Below, piece after piece: positions 1,330-52,031 of a stretch of 52,530 nucleotides of DNA. How positions within the stretch are numbered: position 1 is the first letter of the stretch; each line of letters opens with the position of its first letter. Made by a program: the position numbers and the translations under genes. The stretch comes from Pseudomonadota bacterium. Its GTDB lineage: Bacteria; Desulfobacterota; Binatia; UBA12015. The notes beneath the pieces are model-generated. The model was given only the letters and a program-made list of their open reading frames with translations, searched no databases and was not told the DNA's origin. Location of the stretch: NCBI GenBank assembly GCA_005777805.1, contig SXLG01000066.1, positions 1 through 52,530 on the forward strand. Direction: 5' to 3'.

Positions 1330-2361
1330 TCAGGCGCGCTTCGGCATGAGTTCCCAGTGGTCCATGTCGAGAAGGACGCGCGGATCGTGCCGCAAAACAC
1401 CTCGCTCGTCCCGGATCTCGATGGCAAAGTCGGGAAGATTCGCCGGGTTCATATCCTTGACCGCGACCAGGCGCAGGCGCAAGGCACCCCAGGACGCCCC
1501 CGGCACGTCGTGCGTCTCGAGCACGTCGGTGAACGAGTAGATCGTGGTGCCGGCGTAGCAAGGGTTGGCGTGTACGCCAGAGTTCATGGCGACGATCCCG
1601 GAGCGGTTCTCGAGTCCGTTCTGCGCCTGTGCGTAAGCGATCGACATCGGCAGCCCACCGTACACCAGCGGACGGCCCTCGGTCAGGATTGCATCGAAAT
1701 GGACCTTGGCGGTGTTCTGGAAGAGGCGCGTGTACGACGTGTGGTCGGACGCGTTCACCGTCATGCCATCATGATGAAAAATGCGCTCGCCCGGCTGATA
1801 GTCCTCGAAGGTGAATCGCCCGCCCGTTTTCTCGGCGCGCGAGAGTTCGCCATCGAAGGGCGGCAGCTCGGTGGGGGCGACCTGCCTGGGTAGACTCGGC
1901 ACGACCGGCTCCTCGAGCCAACGGGTGGCCGCGCCCGCGTCCCGCTTCTTCACCATCACCCAGCGCGTGTACTCGAGCACCACCACGCCCTGCTGATTGC
2001 GACCGATCGTCTTCACCCAGACGTTGCCGGTCTGCCGGTTCGAGTTCTCTTTCAGACCGAGGATCTCGATCTCGGTGGTGATCTCGTCGCCGTGAAAGAC
2101 CGGCGCGCGCCAGATCATGCCGGCGTAGCCGAGATTGGCGCGCGCGTTGAGAGAAATCTGCCTGACGGTCTGGGCGATCACCAGATGAAAGACGATCAGC
2201 GGATGGACGCGACCCTCGGCGCTACAGAACCGCGCGCTGCGGTCGTTGGTGGTGGCGATATGAAGCGCCGTCTCGGCCGGGCCGAGCACACGCGGCACCG
2301 GACACAGGCTGCGCCACCCGAGCGCGAAATCCTCAAAAAAGTTCCCGAGATCACCCTTCAT
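1330..2361 (-). CDS. MaoC-like double-hotdog dehydratase, mesaconyl-CoA hydratase-like
   Basis: MKGDLGNFFEDFALGW...LLVFH-like 'LIVFHLVIAQTV..ISLNARANLGYA', 'VIGLKENSNRxTG', 'YTRWVMVKKRD' resemble Mch/MCD proteins; start chosen at MKGDLGNFFEDF rather than the longer ORF. Confidence 0.8.
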   Translation of the reverse strand: MKGDLGNFFEDFALGWRSLCPVPRVLGPAETALHIATTNDRSARFCSAEGRVHPLIVFHLVIAQTVRQISLNARANLGYAGMIWRAPVFHGDEITTEIEILGLKENSNRQTGNVWVKTIGRNQQGVVVLEYTRWVMVKKRDAGAATRWLEEPVVPSLPRQVAPTELPPFDGELSRAEKTGGRFTFEDYQPGERIFHHDGMTVNASDHTSYTRLFQNTAKVHFDAILTEGRPLVYGGLPMSIAYAQAQNGLENRSGIVAMNSGVHANPCYAGTTIYSFTDVLETHDVPGASWGALRLRLVAVKDMNPANLPDFAIEIRDERGVLRHDPRVLLDMDHWELMPKRA

Positions 2362-2421
2362 GCCCACTCCTCGCACAATTGGACCGCCGGCCTCCAACAA
2401 GTGCCCGGTCGCCCCGCCGGG

Positions 2422-3873
2422 CTAGCGCGCAACCGCGGCTGGAGTTTCGTGGTCCGCCTCGGCCGCTTCCAGGAGGCGAGCCAGGTTGCTCTGGTGGCGG
2501 TCGCGATCGATCCGGTAGGGAAAGAGACAAGCGATCGAGCAAGCATAGAGGACCGCCACGATCGGCGTGAAGCTGGCCCCGAGCCACCAGAGCGTCTCGG
2601 GCGGGACCTCACCGGGCTTCGCACCGGAAGGAAAGCCCACCGCCGTCAGCAGCAGACCGGAGCCGAGCACGCCGAAGCCCGAGACGATCTTCTGCACGAA
2701 CATCCGCACGGCAAAGAACGTCCCCTCCGAGCGCCGTTTGGTGCGAAGCTCACTCTCCTCGACGATATCGGCCACCATCGCCGACACCAGGATGCTCGAG
2801 GAGATCACGAGCGCGATCTCGATCATGGTGAAAAGGGCCAGGACGGGAAGCAGCAGCGGCGTGCCGTTGGCCGGCATCACGTCCATGAGCCGCAGCACGA
2901 TCGGCACGGGCACCAGGCTGAGTCCGGCCGTGCCGGTGGCGATCGCCGCCCGCTTCTTGCCGACGCGCGCCGAGAGGCGCGGCGTCAGCGCGAAGGCAAG
3001 CAACGCAGCCGGGAAGTAGGACAGAACCAGCAACGAAATCTGCGCTGCGCTGAGGCCCCAGAAGAAGGTGCTGAAGTAGACATGGAGCGCTGCCGAGATC
3101 CCCGCCGCCGCGGCCCCGAAAAGCCCCGACACGAAGAGCGCCAGGAAGTTGCGGCTGGCGAGCGATTCGCCCAGCTCGCGCAGCATCCGTCGCAGCGCGA
3201 AGGGGGCAGCCGGCGGGGGGGCCTTGAGGCGCGGAATGTGGCGGTGCGTGCCAAGAGCAGAGACCAGGATCGCGGCCACCATGAGCACCGCCGCCACCAC
3301 GCCGTAGATCCGATAGCCCTCCGCGTTGAGCACGCCGATCGGCTGCTCGGCCGTGGGGCGCAGCAAGATCCCGTAGGCGAGCAACGCCATCCCGAGCCCG
3401 CCCCACCAGCCAAACAGGAAGCGGAAACTCATCATCGAGGTGCGCTCGTCGTAGTCGTCGCTCAGCTCGGCGACCAGCGCCGTGCTCGGGATTTCGTAGA
3501 AGGTGATGCAGACCCGCACCACCACGGCCATGCCGACAAAGTAGGCAAAGAGAGCATCGCCGCCGAGTCCGCGCGGTGGGGCAAACAAGAGCCAGAACGA
3601 CACCCCGACCGGGAGTGCGGCGGCGTACATGAAGGGATGCCGCCGGCCCCAGCGCGAATGCAGATGGTCGGAGAGATGACCGACCAGCGGATCGAGGATC
3701 GCATCGCAAGCCAGCGCGACCAGGATACCAAGGCCAACCCGCGACTCGGGCACGCCGAGCACCTGGCCGTAGTAGATCAGGAGAAAATAGGAGAATCCGT
3801 TGTCCTTGACGCCGTAGGCGACCGACCCGAGTCCGTAGAAAATCTTGGTACCGAGATCGACCTTGCCACGCAT
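2422..3873 (-). CDS. MFS/GPH-type (glycoside-pentoside-hexuronide) cation symporter
   Basis: MRGKVDLGTKIFYGLGSVAYGVKDNGFSYFLLIYYGQVLG...DPLVGHLSDHLHSRWGRRHPFMYAAALP, multiple TM segments, typical of GPH/MelB fold. Confidence 0.85.
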   Translation of the reverse strand: MRGKVDLGTKIFYGLGSVAYGVKDNGFSYFLLIYYGQVLGVPESRVGLGILVALACDAILDPLVGHLSDHLHSRWGRRHPFMYAAALPVGVSFWLLFAPPRGLGGDALFAYFVGMAVVVRVCITFYEIPSTALVAELSDDYDERTSMMSFRFLFGWWGGLGMALLAYGILLRPTAEQPIGVLNAEGYRIYGVVAAVLMVAAILVSALGTHRHIPRLKAPPPAAPFALRRMLRELGESLASRNFLALFVSGLFGAAAAGISAALHVYFSTFFWGLSAAQISLLVLSYFPAALLAFALTPRLSARVGKKRAAIATGTAGLSLVPVPIVLRLMDVMPANGTPLLLPVLALFTMIEIALVISSSILVSAMVADIVEESELRTKRRSEGTFFAVRMFVQKIVSGFGVLGSGLLLTAVGFPSGAKPGEVPPETLWWLGASFTPIVAVLYACSIACLFPYRIDRDRHQSNLARLLEAAEADHETPAAVAR

Positions 3874-4020
3874 GTCCGCCGTACTCCGTTCGCGGAAGTC
3901 CGGGGCCGGGCCGGCTCCGAGCCCTCGAGGATTCGCCCCTTGTGGGGGTTGGGGGTGCCCGGTGCAAGGGCGTGCCCGACGACGCAACGACCGAGCCGTG
4001 TCAGCGCGTCGCGCCACCTC

Positions 4021-4062
4021 AAAATGGAGAGGGGCGACCTCCACCATGAGGCCGCCCCTCTC
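4021..4062 (-). terminator. Hairpin terminator downstream of secreted protein A
   Basis: 4027-4041 GAGAGGGGCGACCTC pairs with 4048-4062 GAGGCCGCCCCTCTC (1 mismatch), 6-nt loop; on the minus strand it is followed by CCATTTT. Confidence 0.7.
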
Positions 4063-4135
4063 GTCCGTCTCGAGCCGGCGACGCGTCCCTTGGGACACGC
4101 CGCCGGCTCGCGAGGGCGTTACTTCACTACCCGGA

Positions 4136-4996
4136 TCAGAACAGCGACGAGCCGTCGACGAACGCACCACTCGGCGAGCCGTCACAGCCCTCGGTGTTGT
4201 TCCAGGTCGAGCTGGCCGCGTCGGTGAGCGCGTTGTCGATCAGCGGGATCAGCGCCGCGTACGTGCCGCCACCAGCACCGAGCTTGGATTCCATCTTGGC
4301 CCGCGCGCCGTCCCGGCAGGCGTCCTGCACGGGATCCGGGGTATCGGCACTCTTGGCGCTGCACTGGGTCAGGCTGTCGGTGAGCGCGCCGCCGCCCTTC
4401 GAGCCCTTGGAATCACCCTCACAGGAGCCGATGCACTTGAAGAGGCTCTGGCCATACTTGCTGAGTTCGCCGATGTCCTTGCCGAGCGTCTTGATGTCCT
4501 TGCCGGCGGCGTTGCCGAGAACATTCGCCAGCAGGGCAAGCGCGTCGAGCTGCGCGTAGGTCGAGTCGTGGGCCCCCTGCCAATCCTCGACGTCCGTGTA
4601 GTCCTGGTTGCCGGGCGTGGTCGAGTCGTTGTCACCCGGACATTGCATCGTCGTGTAGTCAGCCGACGCGTCGCCCGTCGCCGACTTCTTCGAGTAGTCG
4701 ACCTTGCTCTCGCACGACGCCAGCGCTTCTGCGAAACCCGATCCAGCCGGGCCGGTCGCGGTCGCCATCACGCAGTCCTGCGTCGCGACATCCATGCCGT
4801 ACTTGCCCTCGCACTTGACGGTGGCCTTCACCACGCAGGCGACGAATTTGGCCTGCTGCTTGTAGATGTCGATCAGCTGACCGAACGCTGCCTTCTCGCC
4901 ATCGTCGGTCAGATCCGGCACCCAAGCGCGGGCCATTCCAGCCGACGCGAGCAAGGCGCCCGCGGCCACGGCCATCTTAAAAGTTGGGGTACGCAT
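4136..4996 (-). CDS. Secreted 10-cysteine protein, paralogue A (unknown family)
   Basis: Signal peptide MRTPTFKMAVAAGALLASAGMARA; 10 Cys; AGGAGG RBS upstream; paralogous to 5481-6287 and 6764-7624. Confidence 0.85.
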   Translation of the reverse strand: MRTPTFKMAVAAGALLASAGMARAWVPDLTDDGEKAAFGQLIDIYKQQAKFVACVVKATVKCEGKYGMDVATQDCVMATATGPAGSGFAEALASCESKVDYSKKSATGDASADYTTMQCPGDNDSTTPGNQDYTDVEDWQGAHDSTYAQLDALALLANVLGNAAGKDIKTLGKDIGELSKYGQSLFKCIGSCEGDSKGSKGGGALTDSLTQCSAKSADTPDPVQDACRDGARAKMESKLGAGGGTYAALIPLIDNALTDAASSTWNNTEGCDGSPSGAFVDGSSLF

Positions 4997-5390
4997 GCTT
5001 TCTCGAGCCTCCTGTGGGGTTAGAGGTCAGCTATCCGGCGATTGAGGTCACCGTCCGGGGCTGACCGGGGATAGCTTCCCCAATAGACCCGTTCGGAGTC
5101 ATCGAGCAACCGCTGACGTTGCCTGGATCTCGAAAATCGTCGAATCGTCCCGATAATCGGTCGGACGAGGGATGTCCCCTACTGGCCTTCAAGCTGGCCA
5201 TGCTGCGCGAGCGCGTGCTCGGTCCCAGCCGGGGGACAGCTCCGCGATTCCCCTCTGGGCAAATCGCGCCATCGAAACGGGGCGATGTCGGGAAGGGGCG
5301 GTAGAGCCTTCCGCGGGCGTCCGCGCGCTCGTGCGGGGCCAAGTCCGCGAAGCTTGCCGGGCGGACGGGAGACCGTGCAGCGCCCAAGCC

Positions 5391-5459
5391 GGGACCGCTC
5401 GGCCCAGTCTCGCGGGATCGGCGCTTGGGGTGCGCCGCTCCCGCGGACTGCCGGGTCCC
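5391..5459 (-). terminator. Nested GC-rich hairpin downstream of paralogue B (terminator or structured RNA element)
   Basis: gggacc/ggtccc outer, cagtc/gactg, cgcggga/tcccgcg, gcgc/gcgc; homologous hairpin at 6702-6738; no clear U-tract. Confidence 0.45.
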
Positions 5460-5480
5460 GATCAGAAGAGCGACGAGTCG

Positions 5481-6287
5481 CTAGCTGCAGCCCTCGCTGT
5501 TGTTCCAGGTGGTGTTAGCCGCGTCGCTCAGCGCGTTGCGGATCAGTGGGATCAGCGCCGCGTACGTGCCGCCGCCCAGACCGAGCTTGGACTCCATCTT
5601 GACTATCGCGGCGTCCCGGCAAGCCGCCTGCACGGGATCGGGAGTGTCTGCGCTCTTCACGCTGCACTGGGTCGTGCTGTCCGTCGTCCCGCCGTTGCCC
5701 TTCGAGTTCTTGGTATCCCCCTCGCAAGCGCCAATGCACTTGAAGATAGCCTGGCCGAACTTGCTGAGTTCGCCGATGTCCTTGCCAATCGTCTTCACGT
5801 CCTTGCCGGCGGCAACGCCAAGCACGCTGGAGAGCGTGCCCAACGCGTCGAGCTGGGTGTAGGTCGCAGAGCGGGACGCTTGCCACGCCGAGAGATCGGC
5901 AAATTGCTGGTTGCCGACCGCGGTCGAGTCCATGTCACCCGGACACTGCATCGTCGTATAGTCAGCCGACGAGTCGCCCGTCGCCGACTTCTTCATGTAG
6001 TCGACCTTGCTCTCGCACGACGCCAGCGCCTCTGCCAGACCTGGACCGCTCGCAGTAGCGAAGACGCACTCGCGCACGGCGGGGTCTGAACCCAGGGCTT
6101 CGCACTTGACGGCAGCCTTGACGACGCAGGCAACGAACTTGGCCTGCTGCTTGTAGATGTCCGTGAGCTGGCCGAACGCTGCTTTCTCTGACGCGTCGGT
6201 CAGATCTGGAACCCAGGCGTGGGCCATTCCGGCCGACGCCAACAAGGCGCCCGCGGCCATGGCCATCTTCAAGGTTGGAGTACGCAT
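5481..6287 (-). CDS. Secreted 10-cysteine protein, paralogue B (C-terminal tail lost)
   Basis: MRTPTLKMAMAAGALLASAGMAHAWVPDLTD...; very similar to A; stops at EGCS before the conserved GSPSGAFVDGSxLF tail. Confidence 0.85.
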   Translation of the reverse strand: MRTPTLKMAMAAGALLASAGMAHAWVPDLTDASEKAAFGQLTDIYKQQAKFVACVVKAAVKCEALGSDPAVRECVFATASGPGLAEALASCESKVDYMKKSATGDSSADYTTMQCPGDMDSTAVGNQQFADLSAWQASRSATYTQLDALGTLSSVLGVAAGKDVKTIGKDIGELSKFGQAIFKCIGACEGDTKNSKGNGGTTDSTTQCSVKSADTPDPVQAACRDAAIVKMESKLGLGGGTYAALIPLIRNALSDAANTTWNNSEGCS

Positions 6288-6701
6288 ACTTCTTCAAGCC
6301 TCCTGTGGGGTTGGGGGTCAGCCGTCGGGCAGAATTATGGTCACCGTCCGGAGCTGGCCGGGTAGATCATCCCCCATAGACCCGTCCGAGATCGTCGCGC
6401 AATCCTTGAGATCACCCACCCCTCGGAAACCGTCGAACCGTCCCGATAGTCGGTCGGACCCGGGATCTCCCGCTTCCACGCGGCCGAGGGGGCCACGAAG
6501 AACCCGGAGGTGTCCCCTGGAGCGTCCCCGAAGGGGCGCACCCCCGCCTCGCGCAAGAGAGGCGGTCGCGACTCCCGGAGGGAATCCTCCAGCGGGGGAA
6601 TGGTGGCCGGCGCGCAACCGCCATGGCCAAGGAGTCAGGGGTCTCGGCGTTCGCCGGTGATACCGGCGGGAAACCGTGCCGCGCACGGTTCGGGACAGTC
6701 C

Positions 6702-6738
6702 CGCGGGAGCGATGCGCTGCCGGCGCGCCGCTCCCGCG
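6702..6738 (-). terminator. GC-rich hairpin downstream of paralogue C
   Basis: cgcgggagcg(6702-6711)/cgctcccgcg(6729-6738) with inner gcgc/gcgc; position and sequence match the hairpin downstream of B. Confidence 0.45.
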
Positions 6739-6763
6739 TGGACCGTCGGGGCGACCGTGTCGC

Positions 6764-7624
6764 TCAGAACAGGGGCGAGCCGTCGACGAACGCGCCGCTC
6801 GGCGAGCCGTTGCAGCCCTCGGTGTTGTTCCAGGTGGGCTGAGCCCCGTCACCGATTGCGCCGTCGACCAGACCGATCAGTGCGGCGTATGCGCCACCAC
6901 CCGCGCCGAGCTTGGTTTCCATCTTTATCTTGCTCTTGTCGTAGCAGGCGATCATCGCGGGGTCAGCCGCACCATTGCCAGGATCACACTGGGTCGTGCT
7001 GTCGGTGAGAGCGCCCCCGCCCTTGGTCCCCTTGGCGTCGGCCTCGCATTTGCGGATGCAAGTGAAGAGCCCCTTGCCGTATTTGTTCAGGGTGCCCGTG
7101 TCGGCCGCTGTCGCGATGGCGTCCTTGCCCGCCGCGTCCGCAAGCAATGCGACGAGGGTCGCCAGAGTATCGAGCTGAGAGTAGGTGCTCGGGAGCGCTG
7201 CCGTCTGCCAGGCCGTGAGACTGGCGTAGTCCTGATTGCCGGGCGTCCCGCTATCGGAATCAGCCGGGCATTGCATCGCGGCGTAGTCAGCTGCCGCGTC
7301 GCCCGTGCCCTTCTTGTTGTAGTCGACCTTGGCCTCGCAGGCGGCGAGCGCCGCGCCGAAGCCCGAACCGACCGGACCCGTCGCGGTGGCGAACACGCAT
7401 TCCTGCGTACCCACCGAGGTCCCATAGGTCTGCTCGCATTTGATCCCGGCCTTCACCACACAGTCGACGAACTTCGACTGCTGCTTGTAGATGTCACCGA
7501 GCTGCTTGAAGCGCGCCTTCTCGGCCGGGTCGGCCAGATTGGGAATCCACGCGCTCGCCGCGCTGGCCGTGGCAAGCACTACCGTGGCGACGAACGCCAC
7601 CCTCGAGATCAGAATCCTAGCCAT
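6764..7624 (-). CDS. Secreted 10-cysteine protein, paralogue C
   Basis: Signal peptide MARILISRVAFVATVVLATASAASA; all ten Cys of A and B conserved; GSPSGAFVDGSPLF tail. Confidence 0.85.
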   Translation of the reverse strand: MARILISRVAFVATVVLATASAASAWIPNLADPAEKARFKQLGDIYKQQSKFVDCVVKAGIKCEQTYGTSVGTQECVFATATGPVGSGFGAALAACEAKVDYNKKGTGDAAADYAAMQCPADSDSGTPGNQDYASLTAWQTAALPSTYSQLDTLATLVALLADAAGKDAIATAADTGTLNKYGKGLFTCIRKCEADAKGTKGGGALTDSTTQCDPGNGAADPAMIACYDKSKIKMETKLGAGGGAYAALIGLVDGAIGDGAQPTWNNTEGCNGSPSGAFVDGSPLF

Positions 7625-7712
7625 CTGTTCTTTCTCCTGTCCTCAACACCGGGGGACGATCCTCGTCCGGAAGGGGTCAGTTCAAGGCCGTCCAGTCTTT
7701 CGGATGTTCTAC

Positions 7713-7728
7713 TAGGTATTTCTACCTA
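7713..7728. promoter_or_regulatory. Palindromic operator-like site TAGGTATTTCTACCTA
   Basis: Perfect 6-bp inverted repeat, 4-nt centre, in the AT-rich divergent intergenic region upstream of paralogue C and the GT4 gene. Confidence 0.4.
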
Positions 7729-7860
7729 AAGACAACCCTATACCCCCTGATTAAACGACACGACCTGCCCCATATTCACGTATGAACATTGGAATCTTGC
7801 GGGCGTAGGGCGATCGCCTCGGACGTTCGCACAGCAGTCGCACGCCCGACGCTCCGCGGC

Positions 7861-50531: not shown

Positions 50532-52031
50532 TCAGCGCACGCGCAGGCGGAGCTTCTTCTGCCTGGACTCGGCGAAGAAGCCATCGGTAACGAGCAGCAG
50601 GGCGTCATAGACACCCGCGCCGAGGGCCACCTCGACGCGCACCGTGGCCGGATCGACAGCACCAAAGTTCCACTCGTCGATCAGCGCGCCGTCGGGAAAG
50701 CGCCGCAGCTCCATCTGGTAGGCCGCAAGGCCCGCCGAGACCCCATGCGATTTGAGAGCCGAGAGTTCGATCCGCCGCGGCGGGCCCCGTTCCAGAACCG
50801 ACTGGCGCAACGCCGCCACGGGCCGCCGCAGCCGGCTCGGACAGGCGCCAAATTGGAGAGCCGCGAAATCGACATCGATCGGCCCCACCACGCGATCGTG
50901 ATTCAGATCGGCCGCGGGGTTCCAGGCCGGGTCTCCCGGAGACGTCGCCTGAGCCAGCGAGACTGCCGCGATGTCGGAACCGTCGACAAAGCCATCGCCG
51001 GCGATGTCGGCGTTGCAGCCGGGGTGGACCACGGAAACGCCCGCCGGCGGTGCACCGAGGGGCAGACGCACGGGCCGATCGAGCTGCACCGGCGCGTTGG
51101 TCTCGAGCGGAGTCCCGCAGTCACCAAAATAAAGCCGATCGGCCACCGTACCGCCCGCGAGTACATCGAGACACGTCTCGCCGGGTGCGTCGATCCGCAC
51201 CATCGAGAGGACGGTTCCGGTCGAACGCGCACCGATACGCAGAGTGCCCTCGAATTGGTCGTAAGAGAAAGAATTTCCGAGGTCGTCATCTTCGAGCCAG
51301 TGCAACGGGGCTTCGAGAAATTGATTCCCCGAGAAGCGATTCTCGTCCGAATCGCGCATCTCGAGCCCCTGGTGGCCGCCGCGCGTCGTGTTGTTCTGGA
51401 TGTCGTTGCGATCGGCATGAATGACGTAGAGCTGCTCGAAACCGTTGTCGGCGACGAGATTATCGCGAACCGCCACGCCCTCGGAGCTCGTGAGGTGGAT
51501 CCCTTCGTTGCCGTTCGCGAGCACCTGGTTGCGGTGAACGATGACGTCGTGCGAGCTGGCGACGTCGATCCCGTAGCCCGTGCCGTTGACCTCCGGGTCG
51601 AACCAGCCGTTGTCACGCACCAGGTTGTCTTCGACCGTCACGTCCGACGAGTTGTTGACGTAGATCCCCCACCAGAAGCCCGAGACGACGCAGCCGCGCA
51701 GGGTCGAGCCGGTCACGGGGCGCGTGCTGGATCCCGTCTTGATCCCGAACTCCTGCCTGGTCGCGTCCGCCGGCCCCAGAATGGAGTAGCCGGCGCAGTC
51801 GAGCACGACGTCGGAATCGAGCCTGAGGCCGACCAGCTCGTCGCCTCCCCCCTCCGGCCACACGCACGGGCCGATATCGGCCGTGAGCACGGTGTCCGCG
51901 ACGACCCGGTCGCCACAAGCACACGGCACCACCCCGCCGCAGTCGGCGGTACGGGCGGTGCCGACGAGCCCAAGCGCCAGCACCAGAGCCAGCGGGCCGA
52001 TCCAGAGGTGGCGGCGAACGCGTTCGTGCAT
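50532..52031 (-). CDS. Secreted right-handed parallel beta-helix protein with dockerin-like Ca-binding module
   Basis: Signal peptide; NSSDVTVEDNLVRDNG / SSHDVIVHRNQVLANGNEGIHL / SSEGVAVRDNLVADNG; NADIAGDGFVDGSDIAAVSLAQ...AADLNHDRVVGPIDVDFAAL. Confidence 0.82.
   Translation of the reverse strand: MHERVRRHLWIGPLALVLALGLVGTARTADCGGVVPCACGDRVVADTVLTADIGPCVWPEGGGDELVGLRLDSDVVLDCAGYSILGPADATRQEFGIKTGSSTRPVTGSTLRGCVVSGFWWGIYVNNSSDVTVEDNLVRDNGWFDPEVNGTGYGIDVASSHDVIVHRNQVLANGNEGIHLTSSEGVAVRDNLVADNGFEQLYVIHADRNDIQNNTTRGGHQGLEMRDSDENRFSGNQFLEAPLHWLEDDDLGNSFSYDQFEGTLRIGARSTGTVLSMVRIDAPGETCLDVLAGGTVADRLYFGDCGTPLETNAPVQLDRPVRLPLGAPPAGVSVVHPGCNADIAGDGFVDGSDIAAVSLAQATSPGDPAWNPAADLNHDRVVGPIDVDFAALQFGACPSRLRRPVAALRQSVLERGPPRRIELSALKSHGVSAGLAAYQMELRRFPDGALIDEWNFGAVDPATVRVEVALGAGVYDALLLVTDGFFAESRQKKLRLRVR

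Follow-up and report, generated by a model that had tools for sequence, protein, structure and literature searches.

The window analysed here is the whole stretch of 52,530 nucleotides at positions 1 to 52,530 (forward strand) of contig SXLG01000066.1, assembly GCA_005777805.1, from a Pseudomonadota bacterium placed by GTDB in the class Binatia (Desulfobacterota; UBA12015). It carries three consecutive minus-strand genes, here called W1, W2 and W3, that encode putatively exported proteins with ten invariant cysteines. Two of these proteins end in a short peptide, the SPSGAF tag, which recurs at the ends of unrelated proteins and which we consider a candidate C-terminal sorting or processing signal. 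The first-pass annotation of the window had described a tandem triplication encoding 286, 268 and 286 amino acids (aa), and the open reading frames (ORFs) were located exactly so. The features of the locus are as follows:

4136–4996, minus strand: W1, predicted exported ten-Cys protein, 286 aa, with a C-terminal SPSGAF tag
5481–6287, minus strand: W2, predicted exported ten-Cys protein of 268 aa that has lost the tag and ends in ...NNSEGCS
6764–7624, minus strand: W3, predicted exported ten-Cys protein, 286 aa, with a C-terminal SPSGAF tag, the earliest branch of the tandem set
4925–4996, minus strand: predicted signal peptide of W1, MRTPTFKMAVAAGALLASAGMARA, with what appear to be a basic n-region, a hydrophobic core and an ARA cleavage site
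4997–5178, minus strand: spacer upstream of W1, duplicated with the gene, 75–84% identical to the region upstream of W2 (repeat families D4/D6)
6288–6471, minus strand: spacer upstream of W2, the counterpart of the W1 upstream spacer (repeat families, alignment)

End-to-end alignment gave 76% identity to W1 for W2 and 62% for W3; the three genes are tandem paralogues, with predicted signal peptides. The DNA repeat unit is about 1.3 kb long, and between W1 and W2 the repeat extends into the upstream spacer (families D4 and D6). Since this spacer was duplicated along with the gene, a separate promoter for every copy is probable. In the tree, W3 branches outside W1, W2 and the tandem gene pair of a sister genome (L005 and L018). 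The ratio of non-synonymous to synonymous substitution rates (dN/dS) was 0.21–0.40 between paralogues and orthologues, which indicates that the genes are maintained by purifying selection; the elevated dN/dS that had been named as a sign of decay is not seen.

The triplication stood, but the family turned out not to end with the triplet. A profile of W1–W3 detected one more paralogue, a distant one, on a separate contig (C171) of the source genome (G000; 3.6 Mb in 194 contigs, estimated completeness 70%). The proposed check of taxonomic spread was made by profile searches, first of 195 relatives and then of 151 genomes of the class, the genomes being fragmentary metagenome-assembled genomes (MAGs); homologues of the family occur in 14–16 genomes of the class. 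Judged by these sequence searches the family is patchy in distribution and confined to the class. A scan across 85,462 GTDB species with the subset alignment A3 returned six relatives, all in genomes already found within the class; the labels read 'Deltaproteobacteria bacterium' for four of them, 'uncultured bacterium' for a fifth and, probably wrongly, Klebsiella for the sixth. The last record (L055, CAMBZJ010000032.1), titled 'Klebsiella pneumoniae', carries a homologue of the ten-Cys family; it matches a contig of G002, a genome that belongs to the same bacterial family as the window, and looks like a mislabelled MAG. No relatives were returned by a scan of genome contigs with the narrow alignment A1 or by a scan of viral contigs, and a DNA pattern made by hand gave no match in the source genome.

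The ten cysteines (positions 54, 62, 75, 95, 119, 188, 192, 212, 227 and 271 in W1) and the motifs quoted in the first-pass annotation are all invariant in W1–W3. The same ten cysteines are invariant in 22 of the 22 full-length members, 18 of which come from other genomes, so their conservation in W1–W3 goes far beyond chance; they account for ten of the 15 alignment columns that are invariant throughout. Cysteine totals are even in every full-length member (range 10–38), and the additional cysteines occur as pairs: those of columns 166 and 177 are present in the same eight members, and one in column 212 or 214 accompanies one in column 233/234. Even totals and paired gains make disulfides very likely, and the five conserved disulfides earlier suggested as an upper limit for W1–W3 are very plausible from the sequences. 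In members from other families of the class (L011 and L019 in G021; L013–L015, L017 and L021 in G059, G033, G053 and G075), a C-terminal Cys-rich tail of the form CGTCGDGxREGxEECDG stands in place of the tag; L011 and L019 also have an additional extracellular domain.

The first-pass annotation had recognised no known domain, and the searches agree with this. The ten-Cys body gave nothing above cut-off against Pfam, NCBIfam, PHROGs and PADLOC (best matches E > 0.01), and a sequence search of the PDB gave chance matches only. AlphaFold2 models built from nine sequences are all-helical (pLDDT 68, pTM 0.65–0.67), and a Foldseek search of these models, which are of moderate confidence, against the PDB found no match with E < 1. 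The confident match to a characterised domain that would have contradicted the earlier view was therefore not found by sequence or by structure. The ten-Cys proteins appear to be an undescribed disulfide-rich helical family for which no relatives by sequence or fold were found in these resources, and the body is probably a protease-resistant structural or binding module.

A distant link may exist to a commoner secreted repeat of the class, CQxxIxK...KC...DC...C, which other class genomes carry (L040, L041). Profile–profile comparison by hhalign aligned the ten-Cys profile with this repeat over 55 columns, in which the Cys and K/Q positions correspond (probability 56%, E 1e-4); this is suggestive and not proof. 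Like the ten-Cys proteins, these repeat proteins (L040, L041, L193) appear exported, helical and Cys-rich and have a comparable K/Q-rich helix ahead of a KC(E) motif, and some of them also bear the SPSGAF tag. It could accordingly be proposed that the ten-Cys body is a divergent two-module form of this helical repeat, that paralogous expansion produced the family and that the tag is incidental. Weak profile matches to such proteins in G006 and G019 and the existence of tagged Cys-repeat proteins (L193, L188, L080/L085) speak for this origin. We regard it as doubtful, however: the repeat architecture is different, the likeness, which is no proof, extends over the N-terminal module only, the CxxxCExDxKxxKGxGG half of the ten-Cys family has no counterpart in the repeats, and the presence of the tag on enzymes and beta-proteins is left unexplained.

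The sequence TWNN(T/S)EGC had been taken for the end of all three proteins. This is correct for W2 only, where a single Ser follows; W1 and W3 continue for 15 residues, (D/N)GSPSGAFVDGS(S/P)LF. The tail so overlooked is the most unusual feature of the locus, a C-terminal tag common to unrelated proteins:

4154–4180, minus strand: C-terminal motif GSPSGAFVD of W1, followed by GSSLF and the stop codon
6782–6808, minus strand: C-terminal motif GSPSGAFVD of W3, followed by GSPLF and the stop codon

The consensus of the tag is x-SPSGAF-[LVI]-[DE], nine residues, with 0–7 residues after it, and in the model of W1 it is predicted to be disordered (pLDDT about 36). The search for the peptide used a degenerate DNA pattern that took no account of frame or position, so that terminal placement was not built into the result. 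GSPSGAF[LVI]D had 33 exact sites in 15 of the 151 class genomes, and the reversed-pattern control had none. All but one of these sites (32/33) lie 9–16 codons before an in-frame stop that ends an open frame; the exception is in an RCC1-repeat protein. The codons of the tag vary at nearly every wobble position and the flanking DNA is unrelated, so selection acts on the tag peptide.

A looser search within the two tag-bearing families of the class (f1 and f8), with a listing expression that admitted some variants and accepted motifs within 40 residues of the stop, gave 54 ORFs. Their bodies form 26 clusters when computed after removal of the last 20 residues. The core reads S in 54/54 ORFs, P in 52, S in 52, G in 50, A in 54, F in 54, then L/V/I, then D/E in 51, the A, F and L/V/I positions being fixed by the listing expression and the first S nearly so. 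No more than seven residues follow the motif, except in one listed ORF, L172, where the motif lies 28 residues from the end; one further exact core, in L192, is internal. Counted class-wide, the tag terminates about 53 proteins, mostly predicted to be exported, whose bodies make up some 25 unrelated clusters. The ends are D/E or short, and many are aromatic (13 F and 5 Y among 37 extended tails).

The tagged bodies are diverse. Those with Pfam names include GH5 cellulase, pectinacetylesterase, phospholipase C-like phosphoesterase, lipase, ThuA/GSDH-PKD and legume-lectin-like proteins, and there are also beta-propeller and Cys-repeat proteins; several have Ser/Thr-rich linkers ahead of the tag. 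By a crude rule, signal-peptide-like N-termini were called in 37 of 49 tagged proteins and in 57 of 212 neighbouring ORFs (Fisher P = 4e-10). The tag is limited to f1 and f8 within the class, and in a sample of 396 genomes of the phylum the peptide was found only in G000 and G021; one DNA match in G452 lies outside any ORF and is a chance site. NCBIfam and Pfam had no model covering the tail in the proteins scanned, and neither 'GSPSGAF' nor 'SPSGAF' was found in a full-text literature search.

Tandem copies of tagged genes were also seen at G021:C1:50101 and 51273, in G034:C102 and in G054:C429. Several distinct Cys-rich secreted repeat proteins of f1/f8 genomes have the tag at their ends as well (L080, L085, L188, L193, L210–L212). 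An RCC1-repeat protein of the source genome (G000:C35:15286-15788; L075, L088, L089) has the internal tag variants GSPTGAFLDG, GSPGGAFVDG and GSPAGAFVDG in loops between its blades; no other clear case away from a protein end was seen in that genome.

Tagged and untagged paralogues adjoin each other in two places, W1 and W3 beside W2 and, in the tandem pair of the sister genome, the tagged L005 beside the second gene, L018, which has no tag. In W2, about 23 nt spanning the motif are absent relative to W1 and a TAG stop follows immediately; a remnant is left downstream:

5462–5480, minus strand: remnant of the tag region of W2, CGACTCGTCGCTCTTCTGA, downstream of its TAG stop, matching in the alignment the W1 sequence that codes for DGSSLF and the stop

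The alignment identifies a deletion as the event by which W2 lost its tag. As L018 groups with the tagged L005 in the tree and W2 lies among tagged relatives, the loss probably occurred twice, separately in W2 and L018.

No partner for the tag emerged from the genes that we searched for. The sortase family PF04203 is present in 5 of the 151 class genomes, of which G005 alone has the tag. Exosortase PF09721 is absent from f8, the most tag-rich family, and from G000, G001, G004, G005 and G008, the window's own genus included. The C25 family PF01364 (PorU-type) was found in one of 16 genomes tested, the untagged G059, and in none of the tagged genomes tested. Sortase, exosortase and C25 were consequently rejected as partners, their presence and absence not following the tag, and so was a partner encoded next to tagged genes, where no neighbour recurs.

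The best reading of these data is that W1, W2 and W3 are envelope or extracellular proteins, and that the tag on two of them is a candidate for a new signal of C-terminal sorting or processing. We hold it modestly probable that the three are helical proteins, exported and stapled by disulfides, and that the SPSGAF tag is a signal read after export. The sequences themselves show the family, its tandem origin, the invariant cysteines, the position of the tag, its conservation at the protein level, its restriction to the lineage and its loss in W2; the export, the disulfides, the recognition of the tag and its effect are here what we infer from sequence and models. W1, W2 and W3, which arose through tandem duplication of the 1.3-kb unit of gene plus promoter, would leave the cytoplasm by a Sec-type signal peptide and fold into all-helical proteins joined by the five conserved disulfides. 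After export and disulfide formation, an envelope protein would recognise the exposed flexible tail and cleave, attach or retain the cargo at the cell surface, while W2, having no tag, would be released or kept periplasmic. Several observations weigh against this. No cognate enzyme was found, as neither sortase, exosortase nor C25 tracks the tag and no neighbour recurs; there are only about 1–8 tagged proteins per genome (exact or near-exact motif), fewer than in typical sorting systems; and the tagged proteins are partly paralogous, so that not all sites are independent. Three variants of the tag lie internally in the RCC1-repeat protein of the source genome, signal peptides were called by a crude rule, and the AlphaFold confidence is moderate.

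The main rival supposes that the tail is a docking or assembly epitope for one common non-catalytic surface partner, comparable to dockerin-like or PDZ-ligand tags, with no cleavage or covalent attachment. In its favour, the motif is short and flexible and its conservation is strong; none of the known sortase-type enzymes tracks the motif, a transmembrane stop-transfer segment is lacking, and variants of the motif occur in RCC1 loops, where cleavage would destroy the protein. We nevertheless consider docking unlikely, given that the tight distance of 9–16 residues from the C-terminus is more typical of a processing signal and that no candidate receptor was identified. Exported Cys-rich four-helix copper-storage proteins exist, and with this precedent the all-helical models with Cys on helices could be read as a Cys-lined, metal-binding bundle instead of a disulfide-bonded protein; the lack of any Pfam match, the single CxxxC and the gain of cysteines in pairs to totals that are always even, as disulfides require, make this very improbable. 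That the tail is a terminator, a palindromic insert or another DNA/RNA element translated by accident, or an artefact of assembly, could draw on the short palindrome in its commonest DNA version (GCTCGCCGAGC), its location at gene ends and its finding in MAGs, but this is largely refuted, and hardly credible to us, in view of the constant sense frame of the upstream gene, the wobble variation, the lack of conservation beyond 27 nt and the recurrence in MAGs of different genera.

The flanking genes are unremarkable (a MaoC/mesaconyl-CoA hydratase-like protein, an MFS_2 transporter, a GT4 glycosyltransferase and a UvrA-like protein), and a NosD-like right-handed beta-helix protein at 50532–52031 has no relation to the ten-Cys genes. 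Long antisense ORFs facing real genes, such as those at 2092–4227 and 6623–7729 (711 and 368 aa), are an effect of high GC content and not genes.

The preferred reading, a sorting or processing signal, has a wider form on which we are evenly divided, namely that SPSGAF[LVI][DE] represents a novel type of C-terminal sorting signal in a gram-negative-type uncultured lineage, having neither transmembrane nor basic segments, with the ten-Cys proteins as one cargo family. On this view the tag works without the segments typical of sortase, exosortase, rhombosortase and myxosortase substrates, so that the enzyme or receptor reading it would have to act on soluble cargo in the periplasm or at the outer surface. 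The occurrence of one nine-residue tag on glycoside hydrolases, lipases, phosphoesterases, propeller and Cys-rich proteins in two families implies a dedicated, undescribed envelope machine, which might be found by phylogenetic profiling with the tag as a sequence handle. If this is true, the surface or extracellular proteins of uncultured bacteria could be recognised by the tag, and the tagged and untagged tandem copies offer a natural pair for testing it.

The signal of type IX secretion (T9SS) is a folded domain of about 70–80 residues. The SPSGAF tag has nine, and C25 is absent from 15 of the 16 genomes tested; the likeness to the T9SS C-terminal domain and its PorU C25 peptidase (PMC7468200) would lie in a C-terminal signal that is removed and replaced on cargo at the surface. 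The LPXTG, PEP-CTERM, GlyGly-CTERM and MYXO-CTERM signals combine a motif with a transmembrane helix and a basic cluster (PMC11980579, PMC3237569, PMC1569441). The SPSGAF tag shares with them a short motif near the C-terminus of unrelated exported proteins, and has no transmembrane helix, no basic end cluster and no sortase or exosortase whose occurrence follows it. PEP-CTERM and its exosortase (PMC1569441) are likewise a gram-negative-type C-terminal signal system for diverse exported proteins, but PEP-CTERM has a transmembrane helix and the exosortase is absent from tag-rich genomes. MYXO-CTERM with myxosortase and GlyGly-CTERM with rhombosortase (PMC11980579, PMC3237569) are similar in being short, lineage-restricted C-terminal signatures on many otherwise unrelated exported proteins, presumed to be processed by one dedicated envelope system; unlike them, the SPSGAF tag has no hydrophobic helix, basic cluster, invariant Cys or Gly-Gly. 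It is no member of any described CTERM class, and it would work like a C-terminal sorting tag.

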